DNA of 37,111 bases. Source: Desulfobacterales bacterium (lineage in GTDB: Bacteria > Desulfobacterota > Desulfobacteria > Desulfobacterales > JAHEIW01). Below the pieces are notes generated by a model. That model made no database searches and had not been told where the DNA came from. It saw nothing but the letters and a program-made list of their open reading frames with translations. Shown here one piece after another: positions 14,437-25,060 of the stretch (positions are counted from its first letter, which is position 1; every line of letters begins with the position of its first letter). The stretch is taken from contig CP070694.1 in assembly GCA_020353355.1 (NCBI GenBank), positions 3,426,687 to 3,463,797 of the forward strand, written 5' to 3'. Made by a program: the position numbers and the translations under genes.

Positions 14437-16239
14437 TCAGGCAGCCTCCGAAATAACCGTCTTTTCTTCCCCTGATTCAGCTACTGTCATGGCTATCCGT
14501 TTGGCGTGATAGTAAATTCGTTTGAGCTTTTCAATGATTTCTACTTCCACACTGTAGGCCTCAAATTTTCCGGAATCTTCGCTGACGAGCCGCTTCGCCT
14601 GATGTAAATCGGCCTGCTCTACCAGACGGTCCATATCCTCACTCATGGAGATGGCGCGCACGGCAAAATCCTTGTCTTCCTCGACCAGCGCCCGCACGGC
14701 GGCCTTGAGCGCATCGGATACAACAACATGAACGGTGTTGATGACCTTCTGAGTCGCCTCGCTGATCTTGAATCCTTTTTTGAGCCTTTTCTCTCCCAGG
14801 TCCACCAGATTGACTTCGATTACGTCGCCGATGTGTTCCAGGTCATTGACGGCCCCCATGAGTTTTACCATTTTTTGAGTCTGGTATTCATTCAGTTGCA
14901 GCTTGCTGACTTCTGCCAGATAATTGACAATGTGCTTGTATAGGACATCGACCTCTTCATCCATCTCGCGCACAGCCTGCAGGGCTTCCTTGTTTCCGGT
15001 CAACACGGCCGGCAGCATGGCTGTGTTCATCAGATCCACCCGTTTTCCCATCAGCTTGATTTCATGCCGGGCCGCATCCAGAGCCAGGCTGGGTGTCTGA
15101 AACAGCATTTCACTCAAATATTTTGGTTGAATTTCTTCAACCTCCGGCAGGGGCTTATCCGGAACCAACCAAAAAACGAATCGGGCAAATTGGGCGACCA
15201 ATGGAAGAAAAAGAACCGCTATTGCTACATTGAACAATGTATGCGCATTGGCCACCTGGCGCGGCAGTACTGAGGCTGCTGCTTCCAGACTGGTAAGGCC
15301 TTCTGACGGGGAGGGGGAGATATAAACGATAAACTTTGCAAACGGTCCAATAAAGGGTAATAAAACTAGAACTCCTATTATCTTAAATAGCACGTGACTC
15401 ACGGCTACACGGACCGCCTCGCGCGGTTTGCCGAGCGAGGCCAATCCTGCGGTCACACAGGTGCCGATATTTGCACCAAGCGCCAGTGCGATTCCCGCCT
15501 CCAACGTGATCAACCCCTGCATCGCCAGCACGATCAGCACGCCCATGGTTGCAGAACTCGATTGAATCAGCGCCGTAAAAATTGCAGCTACCACAATAGC
15601 CAGTATCGGATTGGCCATGCTGGCCATCACATCAATAAATGGCTGAAAAGTTCTGAGGGGTTGCATGGCATCATTCATCACTCCCATACCAAAAAAGATC
15701 ATTCCCAGTCCCATGGTCATATAACCGTATTGCTGGATTTTTTCTTTTTTGGAGGAAAAAAGCATTCCGAAACCGATTGCCATCAGCAGCAACGCATACT
15801 TGGTCACCTTAAATGCCACAATTTGAGCCGTGATGGTGGTGCCTATGTCCGCGCCTAAAATCACGCCGATCGTTTGGGACAGCGACATCAAATTTGCGGT
15901 TACGAAACCGACCAACATGACCGTGGTCACCGAACTGGACTGTATAACAGCCGTCACGATCGCGCCGGTGATAAGGCCCATGATGCGGTTGTTGGACAAC
16001 ATCCCCAGGATGTCCCTCATTTTTTCGCCGGCCACAGTCTTCAGGGCGTCGCTCATTCGTTCCATCCCATACAAAAACAGGGACAGCCCCCCGAGCAATC
16101 CGATAGCCAGAAAAAACCAGCTGATTTCATGTTCGCTGGCATCGGTTTTGGCGTGGGCAGATATCGGTGAGAGCAATAAAAACATACATACCCCAAGCAA
16201 TCTCAGTTCGAATCTAGGATGAGAACTTATCCGTTTCAT
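14437..16239 (-). CDS. Na+/phosphate cotransporter with PhoU domain
   Basis: A 600-residue inner-membrane protein of the Na/Pi cotransporter family (NptA/YjbB type). An N-terminal signal-like segment (about 10-30, ending AHA) precedes two repeated Na_Pi_cotrans halves, each with the QSSS signature (AVIQSSSVTT and ALIQSSSATM) and a GA(D/N)IGT loop. After about residue 375 a cytoplasmic PhoU-like helical domain follows, ending in AKRIAMTVAES. The family imports or exports phosphate with sodium; YjbB-type members with PhoU have been linked to efflux. It follows the UspA gene by 33 bases, so the two are probably co-transcribed, and is convergent with the PPK2 operon. Confidence 0.93.
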   Translation of the reverse strand: MKRISSHPRFELRLLGVCMFLLLSPISAHAKTDASEHEISWFFLAIGLLGGLSLFLYGMERMSDALKTVAGEKMRDILGMLSNNRIMGLITGAIVTAVIQSSSVTTVMLVGFVTANLMSLSQTIGVILGADIGTTITAQIVAFKVTKYALLLMAIGFGMLFSSKKEKIQQYGYMTMGLGMIFFGMGVMNDAMQPLRTFQPFIDVMASMANPILAIVVAAIFTALIQSSSATMGVLIVLAMQGLITLEAGIALALGANIGTCVTAGLASLGKPREAVRVAVSHVLFKIIGVLVLLPFIGPFAKFIVYISPSPSEGLTSLEAAASVLPRQVANAHTLFNVAIAVLFLPLVAQFARFVFWLVPDKPLPEVEEIQPKYLSEMLFQTPSLALDAARHEIKLMGKRVDLMNTAMLPAVLTGNKEALQAVREMDEEVDVLYKHIVNYLAEVSKLQLNEYQTQKMVKLMGAVNDLEHIGDVIEVNLVDLGEKRLKKGFKISEATQKVINTVHVVVSDALKAAVRALVEEDKDFAVRAISMSEDMDRLVEQADLHQAKRLVSEDSGKFEAYSVEVEIIEKLKRIYYHAKRIAMTVAESGEEKTVISEAA

Positions 16240-16881: not shown

Positions 16882-17097
16882 CTATTTCTTTTTTTTCGTT
16901 TTTTTTCCTTTTTTTCCCTGTTTCTTTTGTTTCTTCTTCGCTTTGGCTTTCTTCTTTTTCTTTTTTTGCCTTGCTTTTTCTTTTTTGGCTTTCTTCTTCT
17001 CTTTTTTTGCCTTCTTCTTTTCCTTTGCTACCTTTAATTCGGCTTCCTCAGTTTTCTGTTCTTTCTCTTTCTTTTCGGTCTCCTTTTTTTCTGCCAT
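16882..17097 (-). CDS. Extremely lysine-rich small protein (71 aa, 39 Lys)
   Basis: By hand count, 39 of 71 residues are lysine and 11 are glutamate. The N-terminal third mixes Lys and Glu, and the C-terminal half is almost pure Lys/Ala/Gln/Gly. There is no hydrophobic core, Trp, Cys or His, so it is surely disordered or single-helical. The reading frame is supported by an excellent ribosome binding site (AAGGAGGAGG, 7 to 9 bases before ATG) and by its position between sixA and uspA on the same strand. Phe-rich readings on the opposite strand are shadows. It resembles histone H1-like or nucleoid-associated tails and would bind DNA, RNA or polyphosphate. Function is unproven. Confidence 0.7.
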   Translation of the reverse strand: MAEKKETEKKEKEQKTEEAELKVAKEKKKAKKEKKKAKKEKARQKKKKKKAKAKKKQKKQGKKGKKTKKKK

Positions 17098-17159: not shown

Positions 17160-17654
17160 TCAAGCATGCTTCTTGGGAAACTCAAAGAATTTTAATTTAC
17201 CGCAGTGCTCGTTAATATTGGCCCATGATGAAATATTTAATTCCACACAAATTGCGCCGCAGGTTGGGATATTGCCGATAGGCTGATCGCCGACATAATT
17301 AGCCAATCCATTCAATGCCGGGTTGTGACCGACGACCATGGCCTTATTCACGGTATCGTCAATTTGTTTAACAACATGAAATAGGGCGTTTTCACTGAAT
17401 TCATACATCGTCTCGCTGTATCGAATATTTTCAAGCGGGTAATTGATCGCGGCGGCAACAATCCGTGCGGTCATGGCAGCCCTGTTTGCCGGGCTGGATA
17501 TGACGAGGTCCGGTGTCACCTTTAATTTTTTGAGAATTTTCCCCATGATCGGAGCGCTCTTGCGACCGCGCTTGTTCAGGGGTCTTTCAAAATCATCCAA
17601 GTTGGGATATTTCCAACTCGATTTGGCATGCCTGACCAGATAAAGGGTTTTCAT
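17160..17654 (-). CDS. sixA: SixA-type histidine phosphatase
   Basis: A 164-residue histidine phosphatase superfamily protein of the short SixA branch, known in E. coli to dephosphorylate phosphohistidine proteins. The RHG motif appears as LVRHAKSSW (catalytic His9 region), the FERPLNKRGRK segment follows, and the second catalytic histidine is in VVGHNPALNGL. It is cytoplasmic; no signal peptide is present. It lies between the 54-residue zinc protein gene and the lysine-rich gene. Many SixA-like proteins occur beside CHAD/CYTH or PPK genes, consistent with a role in phosphate-linked metabolism, but the substrate here is unknown. Confidence 0.92.
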   Translation of the reverse strand: MKTLYLVRHAKSSWKYPNLDDFERPLNKRGRKSAPIMGKILKKLKVTPDLVISSPANRAAMTARIVAAAINYPLENIRYSETMYEFSENALFHVVKQIDDTVNKAMVVGHNPALNGLANYVGDQPIGNIPTCGAICVELNISSWANINEHCGKLKFFEFPKKHA

Positions 17655-17818: not shown

Positions 17819-17983
17819 CTACCTTAGTGCAATCGGTTTGTGCAACCACTTTTTTTTGTCAGCCACCCTTCCACACTTTGTGCATACGAATTTGGGATTT
17901 CTGACAATATCACTGAATTTATCGAGTTTATTAGATATATCTTCTTGCTTCCATTTGCAAAGCTCTTTTGTTTTTTTTGCCAT
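17819..17983 (-). CDS. 54-residue putative zinc-binding protein
   Basis: A short gene below usual length cut-offs, found by reading the minus strand. It starts ATG GCA AAA with GGGAG 6 bases upstream and ends in TAG. The protein is basic (many Lys), with Cys9, then Cys34-x2-Cys37 in FVCTKCGRVADKKKW and His48, which together could form a single zinc site (C-x24-C-x2-C-x10-H). The CTKCG knuckle is typical of zinc ribbons. No signal peptide is present. Spacing and strand fit the CYTH-sixA train. Its family is not one I can name with certainty. A larger overlapping frame (76 residues) is a shadow with no ribosome binding site. Confidence 0.72.
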   Translation of the reverse strand: MAKKTKELCKWKQEDISNKLDKFSDIVRNPKFVCTKCGRVADKKKWLHKPIALR

Positions 17984-18129: not shown

Positions 18130-18588
18130 CTACCACGTTGAATACGGATGTTTTATCAGATTGGAATTGAAATAGCGTGGATCGCCGGTCACCTCTTCTC
18201 CAATCCAATCGGGCTTGGGAAACTGTTGATCTTCACTGTCCAGTTCCACCTCCGCAACGATTAATCCCTGGTTATCCCCTGTAAAATCATCGATTTCCCA
18301 GACCATACCTCCAATTTCCACCTTATAGCGGATTTTCTCTATCAGCGGTTTTTCACAGATGTTCAGCAGTTCATTGGCGTCCTGAAGAGGAATCTCATAT
18401 TCGAATTCCATGCGGGATGCCCCCACGGTAAGGCCTTTGATGGTCAGGTAGGCCTTATCGTCGATGGTGCGCACACGCACAATTCGTTCCTTTGTGCTGT
18501 TTAAATACCCCTGGCGATACTGGGTGCAATTTGCCTGGCGCCAGTTCCCTTCTTTTACGAGAAATTTTCGTTCGATTTCCCTGGCCAT
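18130..18588 (-). CDS. CYTH-domain protein (putative triphosphatase)
   Basis: A 152-residue CYTH (class IV adenylate cyclase / thiamine triphosphatase) fold protein. The signature ExExK motif is at residues 4-8 (EIERK), followed by the tunnel strands YRQGYL, RIVRVRTIDDKAYLTIKG, EFEYEIP and the late WEIDDF and VAEVEL strands. Single-domain bacterial members of this size are usually tripolyphosphatases or of unknown substrate, rather than cyclases. Metal-dependent hydrolysis of inorganic triphosphate would fit a polyphosphate island. The ATG is the only sensible start. Immediately upstream lies a hairpin separating it from the ppk1 operon. Confidence 0.92.
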   Translation of the reverse strand: MAREIERKFLVKEGNWRQANCTQYRQGYLNSTKERIVRVRTIDDKAYLTIKGLTVGASRMEFEYEIPLQDANELLNICEKPLIEKIRYKVEIGGMVWEIDDFTGDNQGLIVAEVELDSEDQQFPKPDWIGEEVTGDPRYFNSNLIKHPYSTW

Positions 18589-18764: not shown

Positions 18765-19367
18765 TTAATCCCCAAGGGGTTCCATACTCAAAATTCGCTT
18801 GATTGCCAGCAAATAATTCACATTTTCATATTCGTGCAATCCCAGCATTTGCTTGACCTTCAGTACTGCCTCGATATCCGCGGATTCTAACGCCATGGTT
18901 TGGATGGCTGCGCCGTTGATGAGCAGTTCTGCAATTTCGCCGATACAGCCTTTGATTGTATAACCGAAGCGGCGCTTGAATACCCGGGCTAAAACCAGTT
19001 GCGGATGGGGTGTCAGGATGTCTTCGAGAAATTGCGCCAGGGTATATTCAGATCGATTAAACTCCGGACCAGCTGTACCCAGCGCTGGAAACACGTCATC
19101 GCGGAGAACCTCCATCTTCACGGGAAATACTGCCTGTATGCGAGGTTTCCATTGCTGGAGGCCTTTTTCTTCTTTGACCCAAACCTTAATATCCAATGTA
19201 TCGTATCGAATTTTTACATTATTCTCGTTATTGCTTAAAGATAAGATGTAAATCTCCGAGCTTTCCCGGAATTTATCCAATTTGGAAAGCTTGCGCATCT
19301 TTTCTTCTGCCAGTCCAAAATTTTGGGCGAATGCCCGAAACTCATAGCGCGGTATTATGGCTTGCAT
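18765..19367 (-). CDS. Divergent CYTH-like protein, 200 aa
   Basis: Not a clear member of a named family to me, but its layout resembles a degenerate CYTH domain. It has an N-terminal YEFRAFA strand, ETYYL-like SEIYILS, then VKIRYDTLDIKVWVKE, a W followed by a P-rich turn, and later RRFGYTIKGCIGEIAELLINGAAIQTMALES with a final GLHEYENVNYLLAIKRIL helix. This order (substrate-tunnel strands, then a helix with YEN.NY) is like CYTH proteins, yet the ExExK motif is missing, so it may bind rather than hydrolyse. It is the last gene of the ppk1 operon. Structural prediction would settle the fold. Confidence 0.65.
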   Translation of the reverse strand: MQAIIPRYEFRAFAQNFGLAEEKMRKLSKLDKFRESSEIYILSLSNNENNVKIRYDTLDIKVWVKEEKGLQQWKPRIQAVFPVKMEVLRDDVFPALGTAGPEFNRSEYTLAQFLEDILTPHPQLVLARVFKRRFGYTIKGCIGEIAELLINGAAIQTMALESADIEAVLKVKQMLGLHEYENVNYLLAIKRILSMEPLGD

Positions 19368-19426: not shown

Positions 19427-20170
19427 TTAGGGTAGCAGATCCTTTTCCCATTTTTCCACTCGAGGGGGAGTCTCGCCCTGGAGCAGGGCGGCAAATGCCA
19501 GCAATGCCTTGCGCGCATCTCCGATGGGGTAATAAAACGCATCCCAGTGCTCGCTGTCTTCGCCGTCGTGGTTGGGAATGACATAATCAAACTTCCAGGC
19601 CTCCCTCAATTCTACAATCGCGCTCGCCACGCGCTGTTCGATGTTTTCCAAATCTTTTAGCGAAAGAATGGTTTTCTGGCGTTTGGTGCGGCGCAATAAT
19701 TTCCTGCGCATGATATCCGGCAGGAGTTTTTCAAGATCGGTCCGCTGCAGCGGATCTTTCAGGAACAGAATCTCGTCCCGGGATAGGGGAGCAAGAAAAA
19801 CCTTCAGGGTCGGAATTTCCTGCAACTCGCTTAATTCACTCAGTTTGGCCGGTATAAAAGGATTGCCTTCAAAAAACGCGTCCCGGCCTTGGTCAAGAAT
19901 CGCTCTAATACTGGCCAACTCGATGGCTTGTAAATCTCCCCGAACAATCGCCGACGTGTATCCGGATTTTTTTGCGAGCTCCTCGATTTTTGCCCGGGAT
20001 CGGAAATAGTAGTCCACACCTTCCCGTTCCCCGGGTCTTGGGTCACGGCTGTTGTACAGTACAACCTGCTGTAAATTATCGGCCAGATCCGGATAGAACT
20101 TGCGCAATGCACTATACAGTGGCCCCTTTCCAACACACGAGGGTCCCGATAATATCACAAATCGGCTCAT
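19427..20170 (-). CDS. Guanylate-kinase-like P-loop protein
   Basis: A 247-residue protein whose first 60 residues match guanylate kinase: P-loop GPSCVGKG (residues 9-16) and the GMP-site region NSRDPRPGEREGVDYYF (40-56) with Arg42, Arg45 and Tyr54/55. The P-loop is atypical: GKS/T is replaced by Gly-Lys-Gly-Pro, losing the hydroxyl that coordinates magnesium, and the body is longer than the usual 200-210 residues. The central part (EGNPFIPAKLSELSE) and the basic lid (RRKLLRRTKRQK) diverge. It could be an altered nucleotide kinase, or a binding scaffold like MAGUK kinases. The ATG overlaps the ParA stop by 4 bases, so the two are translationally coupled. Confidence 0.8.
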   Translation of the reverse strand: MSRFVILSGPSCVGKGPLYSALRKFYPDLADNLQQVVLYNSRDPRPGEREGVDYYFRSRAKIEELAKKSGYTSAIVRGDLQAIELASIRAILDQGRDAFFEGNPFIPAKLSELSELQEIPTLKVFLAPLSRDEILFLKDPLQRTDLEKLLPDIMRRKLLRRTKRQKTILSLKDLENIEQRVASAIVELREAWKFDYVIPNHDGEDSEHWDAFYYPIGDARKALLAFAALLQGETPPRVEKWEKDLLP

Positions 20171-20952
20171 CCTATACTCCCTTCTCGGTTCATTTCGTCT
20201 GGCTGCGGAGAAAGTATGGTACGTTGAACTTTATCCCACAGGTTTTGGTAAGATCGTGATGCCACGGACTCTGGTGAAAACACCGCCACCGGTGCCCTGT
20301 AGATTCCCATTTTTTCGATCTGGGCCAAATAAGGAATAAAGCTTTGCAAAACACCGTTATACGTTTTTGACGCCGTGGCGATGATTTCGCGGTGCATTTT
20401 TTTGTGCCGATCCACCATCGAAAAAAAGGTGTAAATCTTGCTGGCGTCATAGTTGTTCTTATTGCAAAAGGACAGCAAATGCTTATATGTTCGCACCGAT
20501 AGCGTCGTTGGAATCAGTGGAACAAGCGCGTAGTCAACGGCGTTCAATATATTCTCGGCCAGAATGCTGATGGTAACCGGACAGTCCAGGAAGATGAAGT
20601 CATATTCAGCTTTAAACGGATTTAGAATTTTTCTAAGCCGTTTTTTGGATCGCTTCACTTTGTCAAAGGCGACATCTAAATTGCGCAGAGAAAAATCTGC
20701 CGGCAGCAGATCCAGATTTTCATAATCCGTGCCTTTAACACTCTTGTAAACCTGTTTGCCGCCCTTAATAAACCCCTTTGCTCCAGATTTCAGTTTGGGT
20801 TTTACGCGAAAATAGTATGTTGCGGAACTTTGCGGATCCAGATCGCAAATGAGAGTTTTCGCGCCGCTCTGCGCTGCCAGATAAGACAGGTTTACTGCTG
20901 CGGCGGTCTTGCCCACCCCGCCCTTGTTACTGTAAAGTGCCAGTGTTGTCAT
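20167..20952 (-). CDS. ParA/MinD-family cargo-positioning ATPase
   Basis: A 261-residue ParA-type ATPase. The deviant Walker A KGGVGKT is at residues 10-16 with the signature lysine at 10. The A' motif is LICDLDPQSSAT and Walker B is FIFLDCPVTIS. It also has the PLIPTTLSVRTY segment. Such ATPases form nucleoid-bound dimers that move chromosomes, plasmids, chemoreceptor arrays or carboxysomes. No parB is adjacent, unlike chromosomal parAB; the partners are a CHAD protein (TGATG junction with its stop) and the guanylate-kinase-like gene (4-base overlap). The ATG was chosen over an in-frame TTG one codon earlier. Confidence 0.9.
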   Translation of the reverse strand: MTTLALYSNKGGVGKTAAAVNLSYLAAQSGAKTLICDLDPQSSATYYFRVKPKLKSGAKGFIKGGKQVYKSVKGTDYENLDLLPADFSLRNLDVAFDKVKRSKKRLRKILNPFKAEYDFIFLDCPVTISILAENILNAVDYALVPLIPTTLSVRTYKHLLSFCNKNNYDASKIYTFFSMVDRHKKMHREIIATASKTYNGVLQSFIPYLAQIEKMGIYRAPVAVFSPESVASRSYQNLWDKVQRTILSPQPDEMNREGSIG

Positions 20953-22508
20953 CAAACTACCTCTTGCGCTGTTGAAGCGAATAGTTCTCTGAATAGCGCC
21001 TGATTTGCAGGCGACGCAAAGTCGGTGAAGGTTTTGGCAAACGCATCTTTAACGGTCTGTTTTTCGTTGTCCAAGGATCCAATTAAGCTGCCAATTGCCG
21101 CCAGCGTTTTCTTAGAGCGTTTTGGAGCGGTCGGCAATTCCGCGATGATGTTCAGAAGATATTCTTTCTGAACCCACAGATCGTTAAAGTCTCCTAAATT
21201 GTCCTGTAATTTCTTCAATTGCTCAATCAGGGTATTCATTTTTTTGCGGGGAAACATGCTGGAGAAAAACTCCATCAAGTATCGCAGTTTCTTGCAATGA
21301 ATTCTGAGAACATGCAGCATCTCATCTTCGGTATTTTCAAGGATCTGGCTGCCAAGTTTCACAACATTGCGGTATTTTTTATAGATTCTGTTGCGTGCCA
21401 GATCGATTACAGGGAGCTTCGCATTCGATGCGGTGGCCGAATCTCTCAGCGGCTTCTTTAAAAAGGCCTCCCAATCCTTCATAATCTTTGTATATTTTTT
21501 AGCCTTCAAACCGCGAATGACCTTCTGCAAGGCCTTTGATCGCTTTTTCCGTAAATGGTCAAACAACGGATCAATGTCTCCCCGCAAAATAGGCGGAAGC
21601 ATTGCTTTGTAGGTATCTTCCTTTAGAAGGTAGACATCCAAGTCCCGTAGCTCGTTGGAGAGTTTTCCCACATAAGCAAAATCTTTCTTAAATCGAGCAG
21701 TTGTTTTGGCTGGGAACACATATTTAATTTGGCCCAATGCCGAGCGGGTTCTGCGTACCGCCACCCGGAAATCATGCAGGAATTCCGTATCCAGGTCCTT
21801 CTCAATATTGGCTTCGTTGATCCGCATGACATCTAACAAAAAGCGTAAAGTAACTTTCGTGGCTTTATCAGAGCGCATGTCAGGATCGAGTTGAAGATTT
21901 ATTTTTGCAGAATAACTGCCCGGCTTTTTGTTGACTGCTGCCAGTACGGTAAAAAATATATCGTCTGCTTTACTCAGGGTAAATCCGGCTGCTTCGATTC
22001 GTTTAGCCAGATTGCGCGCATATTTGGGGTATCCCTTCACGGGCTTCAACCATAAATACGTCGCCAGGACCGGGGTATCTTTTTTTGGGGGAGCTCGAAA
22101 TTCTTCGTAAGCCAGGCGGGCCACTGTTTTTTCCTGCGCGTTTAAAATGCGATAGGGGATCGATCTGGAATGCACCTCAACAAGCTTTAGTAGGGCCCGC
22201 ATTTTTATGATGGGAGCCAATTGGTTTTTTAATTCGCCATCTGGAAACTCCCTTATAAAAACGGGCAAAGTGCTGATTACGGCACTATGTATGATGTCGC
22301 TTTTTGCCAGTTTGCGTAAAAAGAGTCTCCTGCCAGATGCATACAATACCAGTGATTTGTTAAATAAGCGCCAATCAAACGTATCGCAAATCGTAATCTT
22401 CTCAGCAAGCATCGACTCTTTTTTGATGGTATAGTGGCCGGACAATTCTTTAATTAATTGCTGTTTATTATAATTGTCCGGTAAATTGTATTTTAGGTTA
22501 TTGAGCAT
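20952..22508 (-). CDS. CYTH-like / CHAD-domain polyphosphate-binding protein
   Basis: A 518-residue two-domain protein. Residues 1-220 resemble a degenerate CYTH domain (DTFDWRLF, KMRALLKLVEVHSR, LNAQEKTVARLAYEEF) lacking ExExK. Residues about 225-510 form a CHAD domain of two four-helix bundles. Its hallmark basic helices are FLHDFRVAVRRTRS (His245, Arg248, Arg252, Arg253, Arg255) and LHVLRIHCKKLRY (His399, Arg402, Lys406, Lys407, Arg409). CHAD domains bind polyphosphate, and some locate to polyphosphate granules. The start is uncertain: the chosen ATG has a weak ribosome binding site, and a GTG 93 bases upstream is possible. It is the second gene of the ppk1 operon. Confidence 0.92.
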   Translation of the reverse strand: MLNNLKYNLPDNYNKQQLIKELSGHYTIKKESMLAEKITICDTFDWRLFNKSLVLYASGRRLFLRKLAKSDIIHSAVISTLPVFIREFPDGELKNQLAPIIKMRALLKLVEVHSRSIPYRILNAQEKTVARLAYEEFRAPPKKDTPVLATYLWLKPVKGYPKYARNLAKRIEAAGFTLSKADDIFFTVLAAVNKKPGSYSAKINLQLDPDMRSDKATKVTLRFLLDVMRINEANIEKDLDTEFLHDFRVAVRRTRSALGQIKYVFPAKTTARFKKDFAYVGKLSNELRDLDVYLLKEDTYKAMLPPILRGDIDPLFDHLRKKRSKALQKVIRGLKAKKYTKIMKDWEAFLKKPLRDSATASNAKLPVIDLARNRIYKKYRNVVKLGSQILENTEDEMLHVLRIHCKKLRYLMEFFSSMFPRKKMNTLIEQLKKLQDNLGDFNDLWVQKEYLLNIIAELPTAPKRSKKTLAAIGSLIGSLDNEKQTVKDAFAKTFTDFASPANQALFRELFASTAQEVV

Positions 22509-22644
22509 AATTGATTTGCTATATCGTTTCCGACCGGAAATGATCCTTTTTCCGGTGAACTGCGTTCTCCCTGGAAATGACCGATGACTGCTCCCGAACA
22601 CGTCGTTTCACGAATGACAGGGATTTTTCTGAAGCTAGATAGGT

Positions 22645-24849
22645 CTAAACGTGAGATTTTTGCGAGACCTTATATCCGGGCAGCGATTGGCTGCTGATTA
22701 AATTGATAAATACTTCTTGAGCAGCGCGGCATGCTTCGCCTTTCAGTGGGCGTCGTTGTATGTATCTGCCGTCGGGCTGCATATCCCAAGCTGAGCAATT
22801 GTCGTTTTCATAAACCTGCAAAGTCTCCTCCAGCTCCTGTTTTAACTGCGGGTCGGTAACGGGCATCATGGTTTCCATGCGGCGGTCAAGGTTGCGCCGC
22901 ATCCAGTCAGCCGAGCCGATGAAGAATTCGGGGTTACCACCGTTTTCAAAGCGATAAATACGTCCGTGTTCCAAAAAGCGACCGAGGGTGCTGAAAACCC
23001 GAATGTTTTCGGACAGGCCGGGGACGCCCGCACGCAGGCAGCATAGGCCGCGGACATTAAGGCTGATTGGCACGCCCGCTTGGCTGGCACGATAGAGTTC
23101 ACGAACCGTGCGCATGTCCTGAAGCTGATTCATTTTGGCACGAATGCCTGCAGGGCGGCCCTCTTGGCTGTGCTGGATCTCGCGATGAATCAACTCCGTG
23201 AAGTGCTCGCGCAGATTATGGGGGGCAACCATCAGCTTGCCATAGCCGGGAGACGGCATGGCGCCAGTCAGTTCGTTGAACAAGGCTGCCACATTAGCGC
23301 CTAGTTCCTGATCACAGCTGAGAATGCCCAGGTCTTCGTAAATTCGGGCAGTGCCGGTGTGGTAGTTGCCGGTTCCGACATGGACATAGCGGCGAATGCC
23401 ATCCTGCTCCTCGCGAACGACGAGGGCCAGCTTGACATGTGTCTTCAGGCGCTCCATACCATAGGCGACGTGCACTCCCTCTTGCTCAAGAAGTCTGCCC
23501 CAGGCGATGTTGGGCGCTTCATCGAAGCGGGCGGTGATCTCCACCAGTACAGCCACCTGCTTGCCCTGACGTGCTGCCTCCACCAGCGCCTGGATAATCG
23601 GCGACTGGCTGCTGGTGCGATAGATGGTCAGTTTAATTGCCAGCACGTGCGGGTCAACCGCCGCACTTTGCAAAAAATGTAAGGTGGAGCTGTCGAAGCT
23701 ATGGTAAGGATGGTGCAGCAGGATATCGCCTCGGCGGATCTCGGTGAATATCTCTGCGGGGTCATCGGGGTCAAGCAGGCACAGGCGGGGGTGGGTTACG
23801 GGCTCATGGGGTGGATCGCGCAACTCTGGATATCCCTCCACCTGGAAGCCCATCAAGTCTGCCAGACCCAAGAAGCTCTCAGTTAATATGATGTCCTGCG
23901 GATCGGCATTGAGCTGCGCGGCGATCCAGTGTTGTAACTTCTTGGGCGTGTCGGCGCTCATCTGTAATCGTGTCACGCCGGCAAACTTTCGCGCTGTCAG
24001 CTCTGCCGTCACCATGCCGATGATACAGCCCGGCGCAAGCTCGGCTTCATCATCCTCCAGGCATATACGTTCCCACGGGTCATCCTTGGCACCGCGGGTT
24101 ACGCGAAATAAATAACAATTTAACCCAGCTGCCTTGGGAAACAACAGCTTGAGATTGGAGGCAATTATCTGCTCCAGAGGCACATAACCGCCGCCGGGCA
24201 GTGGCACCCAGCGCGGGCGGTTTGCCGGTACTTTGATCCGCACGAATCGGTTGCGTTTCTTCTTGGTTTCCGTTACCTCCACCGCAATGTTCAGGCCCAG
24301 GTTACTGATGAAAGGAAAGGGGTGCGAGGCATCCACAGCGAGCGGAGTCAGGATGGGTTCAACCGATTCACGGAAATAGCGCTGCATCTGTGCCTGCTGT
24401 TGCTCGTTCAACTGCGCGTATTCCATGATGGGAATCCCGGCCGCCGCCAAAGCAGGGCGGAGCTCATCTTGCACCAGCCGGGAAACAAGGTGAGCCTGTT
24501 TGTGTAACTCCTTCCTACAGGCCTCCAGTTCCTCGTCCGGGGTGAGCCCGCCGTGGGATAGTTTCTTTTTCTTTTTCCCTTTCTCGATCTTGCGCTTGAT
24601 CCCACCCATACGCTTCATCGCAAACTCGTCATACAGCATGCCCATGATGCCGGCAAACTTGACACGTTCAAGCAACGGTAAGTCAGGATCCTCTGCGAGC
24701 GCGAGCACGCGGCGTGCAAAACTGAGCCAACTCAGCTCACGGTTGATGAGCGTATCTGGCGAATCGATATCGATTTTTTTCGATTTTACCTCGGCTGTTG
24801 TTGCTTTTTCTGGGCCCACATTCTTTTCGGCAGGAAGGCCGCTTACCAT
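22645..24849 (-). CDS. ppk1: Polyphosphate kinase 1
   Basis: PPK1 makes long-chain polyphosphate from ATP. Landmarks are the N domain (LINRELSWLSFARRVL), the HKD-type phospholipase-D-like halves with His471 in THVK and His628 in FLEHGRIYRFENGG (spaced 157 residues, as in the E. coli enzyme), and VHVGTGNYHTGTARIYEDLG. The chosen ATG lies behind GGGGGC and gives 734 residues. A TTG start at 24948 would give 767 but has no ribosome binding site. The N domain carries a KRKIEKGKKKKK tract. Base composition looks more GC-rich than neighbouring genes, so this copy may be horizontally acquired. First gene of the polyphosphate operon. Confidence 0.95.
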   Translation of the reverse strand: MVSGLPAEKNVGPEKATTAEVKSKKIDIDSPDTLINRELSWLSFARRVLALAEDPDLPLLERVKFAGIMGMLYDEFAMKRMGGIKRKIEKGKKKKKLSHGGLTPDEELEACRKELHKQAHLVSRLVQDELRPALAAAGIPIMEYAQLNEQQQAQMQRYFRESVEPILTPLAVDASHPFPFISNLGLNIAVEVTETKKKRNRFVRIKVPANRPRWVPLPGGGYVPLEQIIASNLKLLFPKAAGLNCYLFRVTRGAKDDPWERICLEDDEAELAPGCIIGMVTAELTARKFAGVTRLQMSADTPKKLQHWIAAQLNADPQDIILTESFLGLADLMGFQVEGYPELRDPPHEPVTHPRLCLLDPDDPAEIFTEIRRGDILLHHPYHSFDSSTLHFLQSAAVDPHVLAIKLTIYRTSSQSPIIQALVEAARQGKQVAVLVEITARFDEAPNIAWGRLLEQEGVHVAYGMERLKTHVKLALVVREEQDGIRRYVHVGTGNYHTGTARIYEDLGILSCDQELGANVAALFNELTGAMPSPGYGKLMVAPHNLREHFTELIHREIQHSQEGRPAGIRAKMNQLQDMRTVRELYRASQAGVPISLNVRGLCCLRAGVPGLSENIRVFSTLGRFLEHGRIYRFENGGNPEFFIGSADWMRRNLDRRMETMMPVTDPQLKQELEETLQVYENDNCSAWDMQPDGRYIQRRPLKGEACRAAQEVFINLISSQSLPGYKVSQKSHV

Positions 24850-25060
24850 GGTTGCCCCCACATTTTTGGTTATCCAGTAGCCTATTAAATCCTCTGTTTC
24901 CTTCACCCACCACAATTGATGGGATTCGTGTTTTGTCAACGAACTCAACGGGAAATAGTGAATCGAAAAGAACTCGACGTGTGTGAGCTGATTTAGCCTA
25001 AAATACCTAGTTTGAAATGGCCTCAGGAATGTAACCGGATGTGGTGTCAGCTATTTCCCG

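Follow-up and report, generated by a model that had tools for sequence, protein, structure and literature searches.

The stretch of DNA analysed here (the window; 37,111 nucleotides of the Desulfobacterales contig CP070694.1) carries on its minus strand, to which all window coordinates below refer, a cluster of polyphosphate (polyP) genes in the order ppk1, CHAD, parA, guanylate-kinase-like gene, 200-amino-acid orphan, CYTH and sixA. The subject of this report is the pair formed by the CHAD and parA genes. The CHAD gene (20952..22508) encodes a protein of 518 amino acids (Pfam CHAD 1e-55) with an N-terminal domain of the triphosphate tunnel metalloenzyme (TTM) fold and a C-terminal CHAD domain, which is predicted to bind polyP and is proposed to serve as a granule adaptor. 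Its reading frame extends from an ATG at 22508 to a stop at 20952, this start being preferred to the GTG at 22601 because homologues favour it. The following gene (20167..20952) encodes a ParA-type deviant-Walker ATPase of 261 amino acids (Pfam AAA_31 5.8e-35) belonging to a distinct, CHAD-linked family. The CHAD stop codon and the ParA ATG (20952) have one base in common (TGATG), and four bases (ATGA) are shared by the ParA stop and the ATG of the guanylate-kinase-like gene at 20170. Both overlaps had been pointed out in an earlier interpretation made from the DNA letters alone (the sequence-only reading), and the coordinates of the open reading frames (ORFs) agree with them. The CHAD and ParA genes are translationally coupled within the polyP cluster.

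The arrangement is found far beyond this genome. When 11.3 million genome contigs were scanned with a CHAD alignment, without preselection, 80 loci emerged, and in 73 of them a ParA of the same family lies directly downstream of CHAD on the same strand (in one, L070, the frame is broken). Among the other seven, the sequence of three (L083, L109 and L112) stops with the CHAD gene or shortly after it, and four (L050, L053, L068 and L069) are truly without an adjacent ParA, the family ParA being absent elsewhere in their genomes as well. The two genes overlap by four bases in 36 of 72 measured pairs and are no more than 50 bp apart in 67. The loci come from about 13 lineages at phylum level: Desulfobacterota, Chloroflexota, Poribacteria, Calditrichota, Verrucomicrobiota, Gemmatimonadota, KSB1, Deinococcota, Dadabacteria, Pseudomonadota, Aminicenantes, Latescibacterota and Acidobacteriota. 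Since most loci are from metagenome-assembled genomes (MAGs), any one assignment could be mistaken; one MAG labelled 'Halobacteria' (L091), for example, groups with Gammaproteobacteria in the tree. Within the window's own taxonomic order (40 genomes including that of the window), a CHAD orthologue occurs in eight genomes, and ParA follows directly in all seven whose contig continues. Further, the protein distances of ParA and CHAD vary together, with a Mantel r of 0.87 where permutations reached no more than 0.15. The adjacency is thus more than chance, and the survey that the sequence-only reading had proposed as a check finds ParA beside CHAD very widely. No fusion of the two proteins was found, long frames such as that in L194 being overlapping reading frames. 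In two of the Desulfobacterota-type loci where ParA is missing, another gene stands behind CHAD with the same four-base overlap (L050:2406-3128 and L053:11560-12282); its product starts with a DIHANYPAL-type motif and is apparently a metallophosphoesterase.

Three class-level surveys covered 291 genomes of Desulfobacteria, 274 of Gammaproteobacteria and 199 of Anaerolineae, with class names assigned by inference. In Desulfobacteria, ParA is present in 36 genomes, CHAD in 39 and both in 34; the two are adjacent in 33 of the 36 ParA genomes, and in the other genome with both genes they are split over two contigs. The gammaproteobacterial genomes contain ParA in 44 cases, CHAD in 87 and both in 38, adjacent in 31 of the 44. 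Anaerolineae hold 13 ParA loci in 12 genomes, with CHAD somewhere in all 12 genomes and next to ParA at 6 of the 13 loci. CHAD is accordingly more frequent in genomes with ParA than in those without (34/36 versus 5/255 in Desulfobacteria, 38/44 versus 49/230 in Gammaproteobacteria and 12/12 versus 77/187 in Anaerolineae), with Fisher values of 1e-36, 2e-16 and 4e-5, respectively, uncorrected for shared ancestry. By these counts Desulfobacteria and Gammaproteobacteria show a strong link and Anaerolineae a looser one; it is not obligatory, as unlinked members occur in both Gammaproteobacteria and Anaerolineae. Four gammaproteobacterial ParAs (L202, L203, L204 and L212) adjoin short CHADs of another type, which have no TTM-fold domain, and the link therefore survives a change of CHAD type. 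A further hint in favour of a polyP role comes from a genome without a CHAD hit, in which ParA follows ppk1 directly (L206). Seven family ParAs of Anaerolineae (L218-L224) stand beside varied metabolic genes, with CHAD elsewhere in each genome. Two divergent ParA relatives without CHAD were also seen, G039 (L029:9876-10661) and G040 (L157:2073-2822), which score about 248-292 bits with a broad model; the latter lies just 3' of a gene for a predicted coiled-coil-like protein of 206 amino acids, which could be a different adaptor.

Judged by its motifs, the ATPase retains the residues needed for its activity and belongs to the ParA/MinD (A/D) superfamily: lysines K10 and K15 of KGGVGKT and the Walker B aspartate D123 are invariant in 67 of 67 sequences, and D39 of DLDPQ is kept in 66. 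Invariant ParA residues that are particular to this family include R49, R90, E213, M215 and R219. The AlphaFold2 (AF2) model of ParA, with a predicted local distance difference test score (pLDDT) of 87.5, has the ParA/Soj fold (Z 30-31); its structural matches are 8ray (Z 31.1), Soj (Z about 30), McdA (Z 27), and BcsQ and FleN (Z about 25). The protein ends after the last helix, as Soj does, with no long C-terminal extension, and the basic positions 183/184 are conserved. The CHAD-linked ParAs group in one clade, apart from the remaining ParAs of these genomes (99% support in the Shimodaira–Hasegawa-like approximate likelihood ratio test, in a quick tree with only 10 outgroup rows), and in 14 genomes a gap in bit score separates family ParAs (at least 357) from all others (at most 132). 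Six relatives (G001, G003, G004, G005, G007 and G021) also encode, elsewhere, a canonical ParA next to a ParB-like protein bearing an ALGRGLGALIP-like motif. Because these canonical pairs exist separately, the CHAD-linked ParA is a distinct paralogue and not the chromosome-segregation ParA; a chromosomal ParB as its partner, which the sequence-only reading had named as evidence that would count against its proposal, did not emerge from gene content. That reading was also right that no parB is present: the window has none, and the genome's single ParB_N match is 332 kb distant and has no neighbouring ParA. Membership of a canonical ParABS system was rejected on the same grounds together with the separate clade. 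No NCBIfam model for MinD/FlhG, BcsQ, plasmid RepA or another named ParA family scored above its cut-off, and these assignments were likewise discarded, as was a role in anti-phage defence, for which PADLOC gave a single weak hit, in the Walker region of ParA.

The CHAD protein was modelled with a pLDDT of 91, with the TTM-fold domain at about residues 1-198 and the CHAD domain at about 199-514. The latter (199-514) matches CtCHAD both alone (6qv7; Z 36.8, root-mean-square deviation 2.0, 38% identity) and in complex with polyP (6qva; Z 36.1). The N-terminal residues 1-198 adopt a TTM fold in the model (Z about 13) and resemble the yeast VTC polymerase (Z about 11). The ExExK motif that marks active TTM enzymes is absent from strand 1 of this half, where positions 5-8 read LKYN and are unconserved in 67 sequences. 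In CtCHAD, mutation of His253, Arg256, Arg260, Arg296 or Arg418/Tyr419 weakens polyP binding (PMC6537752). The corresponding residues H245, R248, R252, R288, R409 and Y410 are invariant in 67 of 67 sequences. By its modelled fold and these contact residues the protein belongs to the polyP-binding (phosin) family, and it is predicted to bind polyP. CHAD proteins of other species bind polyP (PMC6537752) and, according to earlier work cited in PMC9239181, localise to granules.

The genes around the pair point in the same direction. In the window, ppk1 (22645..24948), encoding a polyphosphate kinase with four PP_kinase domains (best 3.1e-68), stands directly upstream of CHAD, a position that it keeps in G001, G003, G004 and G005. 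Downstream lie two recurrent neighbours, encoding a CYTH (triphosphate tunnel) protein (18130..18588; CYTH 2.2e-17) and a SixA-like phosphohistidine phosphatase (17160..17654; His_Phos_1 4.9e-11, with TIGR00249 below its cut-off). Among 146 genes flanking the pair, Pfam recognises CYTH in 16, histidine phosphatase/SixA in 15, PPK1 in 11-12, Ppx in four and PPK2 in three; by BLAST clusters, sixA is found at 25, CYTH at 22 and ppk1 at 15 of the 80 loci. The presence of ppk1, ppk2, ppx, sixA and CYTH genes beside the pair, and the full conservation of the polyP-binding residues, strengthen the link of ParA-CHAD to polyP. Collectively, the data show a genetic tie between a distinct family of ParAs and the CHAD and polyP genes in many phyla, with ATPase and polyP-binding residues intact.

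Other genes of the cluster are more restricted. The guanylate-kinase-like gene (19427..20170; Guanylate_kin 2.1e-13, under the NCBIfam guanylate kinase cut-offs) is present in G001 and G268 and absent in G003, G004 and G005; as it occurs only in the closest relatives, it was rejected as a regular component of the module. The 200-amino-acid protein (18765..19367) has no Pfam or NCBIfam match and is conserved in the genus; the idea that it duplicates the N-terminal domain of CHAD was dropped, as BLASTP found no similarity. On the 3' side of sixA the window contains a lysine-rich ORF, a universal stress protein gene and then a gene for a Na+/Pi cotransporter with a PhoU domain (14437..16239; Na_Pi_cotrans 3.4e-62, PhoU 1.6e-17), which serves phosphate uptake. 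The lysine-rich ORF (16882..17097), just 3' of sixA, encodes a polycationic protein of 71 amino acids (55% lysine). Similar short ORFs with 43-59% lysine, often in the same position, recur in Desulfobacterota-type loci (L171:1-244, L051:13065-13523, L038:5494-5730, L027:11730-11924 and L040:13362-13532, among others); they occur in 17 of 99 scanned loci, some of them duplicates, and nowhere in 140 kb of background loci. They recall the polycationic tail of AlgP, which acts in polyP granule spacing in Pseudomonas, or may be a target for polyP binding. A further small lysine-rich protein with conserved cysteines (zinc-ribbon-like CxxC) is encoded at 17819-17983 of the window and at L024:9847-10014 and L028:6569-6757, and occurs within the same cluster in several relatives.

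Taken together, the two genes probably form a module for the nucleoid-based positioning or partition of polyP granules in which CHAD is the granule adaptor. The CHAD protein would coat the granules through its CHAD domain and recruit ParA, whose ATP-bound dimers would bind the nucleoid non-specifically. Granules with bound CHAD would then stimulate ATP hydrolysis and the release of ParA, and by tracking the resulting ParA gradients they would spread out at intervals along the cell and be divided between its daughters, much as carboxysomes are with McdA/McdB. We infer the ParA-CHAD contact, nucleoid binding, gradient formation and granule movement. On CHAD, ParA might dock at the helical bundle or at those basic residues that are invariant in the TTM-fold domain.

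Several observations weigh against this proposal. The most serious concerns the way in which the ATPase would be bound: known partners of ParA/MinD proteins engage it through a basic disordered N-terminus (PMC10241942). The CHAD protein has no such tail: it is predicted to be folded from residue 5, and the first 30 residues have a mean net charge of -0.4. Further, ParA stands apart from CHAD at 12 of the 44 loci in Gammaproteobacteria and at 7 of the 13 in Anaerolineae, six gammaproteobacterial genomes with an unlinked ParA gave no CHAD hit, and many CHAD proteins are without this ParA. The suggestion of the sequence-only reading that ParA distributes granules with CHAD as cargo adaptor therefore gains from the distinct paralogue, the wide linkage and the polyP gene context and residues, and loses from the absent basic disordered N-terminus and the several unlinked relatives. 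The broader claim, namely a widespread, dedicated ParA system that spaces and segregates polyP granules by an ATP-driven nucleoid gradient in about 13 lineages including cable bacteria, with a CHAD/inactive-TTM adaptor recognised otherwise than through a basic disordered N-terminal tail, has in our judgement an even chance of being correct.

In the leading rival, the ParA-like ATPase would serve the polyP machinery as an ATP-dependent regulator or assembly factor. By binding CHAD or PPK1 it would adjust the making or breakdown of polyP to the ATP state, much as BcsQ acts in cellulose secretion or FleN acts with FleQ. Tight coupling to CHAD and ppk1, with polyP enzymes on the flanks, would suit such a role, as would the gammaproteobacterial genome without a CHAD hit in which ParA follows ppk1 by about 8 bases (L206) and the resemblance of the ParA model to BcsQ and FleN. 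However, the structures that this model resembles most are Soj/ParA and McdA (Z 27-31), and the protein is short and soluble with intact hydrolysis residues. Such features are compatible with regulation too, although a regulatory function appears rather unlikely. Control in the reverse direction is improbable. Here CHAD and polyP would act on a second ParA that works on the chromosome or on a canonical ParB, coupling segregation to the phosphate or starvation state. The positioning of polyP granules in Caulobacter depends on chromosome replication and segregation (PMC13052382), and the window's own MAG has a ParB-like protein with no recognised canonical ParA beside it; yet canonical parA and parB stand as a pair of their own in six relatives, and the conserved genes around the CHAD-linked ParA include none that was recognised as parB-like. 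That the operon merely assembles unrelated housekeeping functions and ParA serves some other, unlinked cargo or partner, as the unlinked members in Anaerolineae and Gammaproteobacteria might suggest, is highly improbable given the same gene order with near-zero spacing across about 13 phylum-level lineages, the retention of the link when the CHAD type is replaced, and co-occurrence even where the genes are apart (12/12 Anaerolineae genomes).

Nucleoid-based positioning by ParA and CHAD, the preferred interpretation, would be of consequence for the cell biology of polyP. That many unrelated bacteria keep ParA directly behind the CHAD gene suggests a so far undescribed polyP granule motor system. 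The conserved pair makes the placement and sharing of polyP granules in bacteria directly testable; it adds a new predicted cargo for the ParA/MinD family and provides CHAD proteins with their first predicted partner beyond polyP itself. The pair is also present in Candidatus Electrothrix aarhusensis (L099). Where cable bacteria form thin filaments, polyP granules mostly occur as two of similar appearance, one per pole (PMC9159916), although the filament species may differ from Electrothrix aarhusensis; in cable bacteria the pair is a candidate for producing such regular polar granule pairs. According to a 2025 review, AlgP in Pseudomonas is the only named positioning factor for polyP granules, the granule-positioning proteins of Caulobacter are unidentified, and the use of energy or ATP in granule localisation remains to be seen (PMC13052382). 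No description joining ParA with CHAD, a phosin or polyphosphate was found in the open-access literature, which agrees with the sequence-only reading, whose author knew of no such system. As this literature comprised open-licence papers without bioRxiv, novelty is likely and not certain.

Among known systems, AlgP of Pseudomonas aeruginosa, a histone H1-like protein, also spaces polyP granules evenly on the nucleoid, and the window's cluster likewise encodes a lysine-rich small protein. However, AlgP has no known ATPase, and the review lists ATP dependence as unknown (PMC13052382). The CHAD phosins (those of Ralstonia and Pseudomonas, Streptomyces PptA and Chlorobium CtCHAD) share the CHAD domain and the polyP-contacting residues, but no ParA partner is described in the CHAD papers found. 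The ParA/Soj-ParB-parS system comes nearest in fold and in class of sequence (Soj, 23-26% identity, Z 30; KGGVGKT, DLDPQ and LDCP motifs), whereas the CHAD-linked ParA has no adjacent ParB gene, forms a separate clade and coexists with canonical parAB in relatives. McdA/McdB offers the same organisation, a ParA-type ATPase without ParB whose gene lies beside a cargo gene, and the adjacency of the partner or cargo gene is conserved here too (33/36 Desulfobacteria and 31/44 Gammaproteobacteria genomes, 6/13 Anaerolineae loci). The McdA structures 6nop and 6non match the ParA model (Z 27, 20% identity), although in sequence the CHAD-linked ParA is nearer to Soj than to McdA. The cargo side differs, being a polyP-binding CHAD protein with a folded N-terminus and no basic disordered tail instead of McdB. 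Viewed beside these systems, ParA-type positioning with polyP granules as a new predicted cargo and CHAD as an atypical adaptor is likely to be new.

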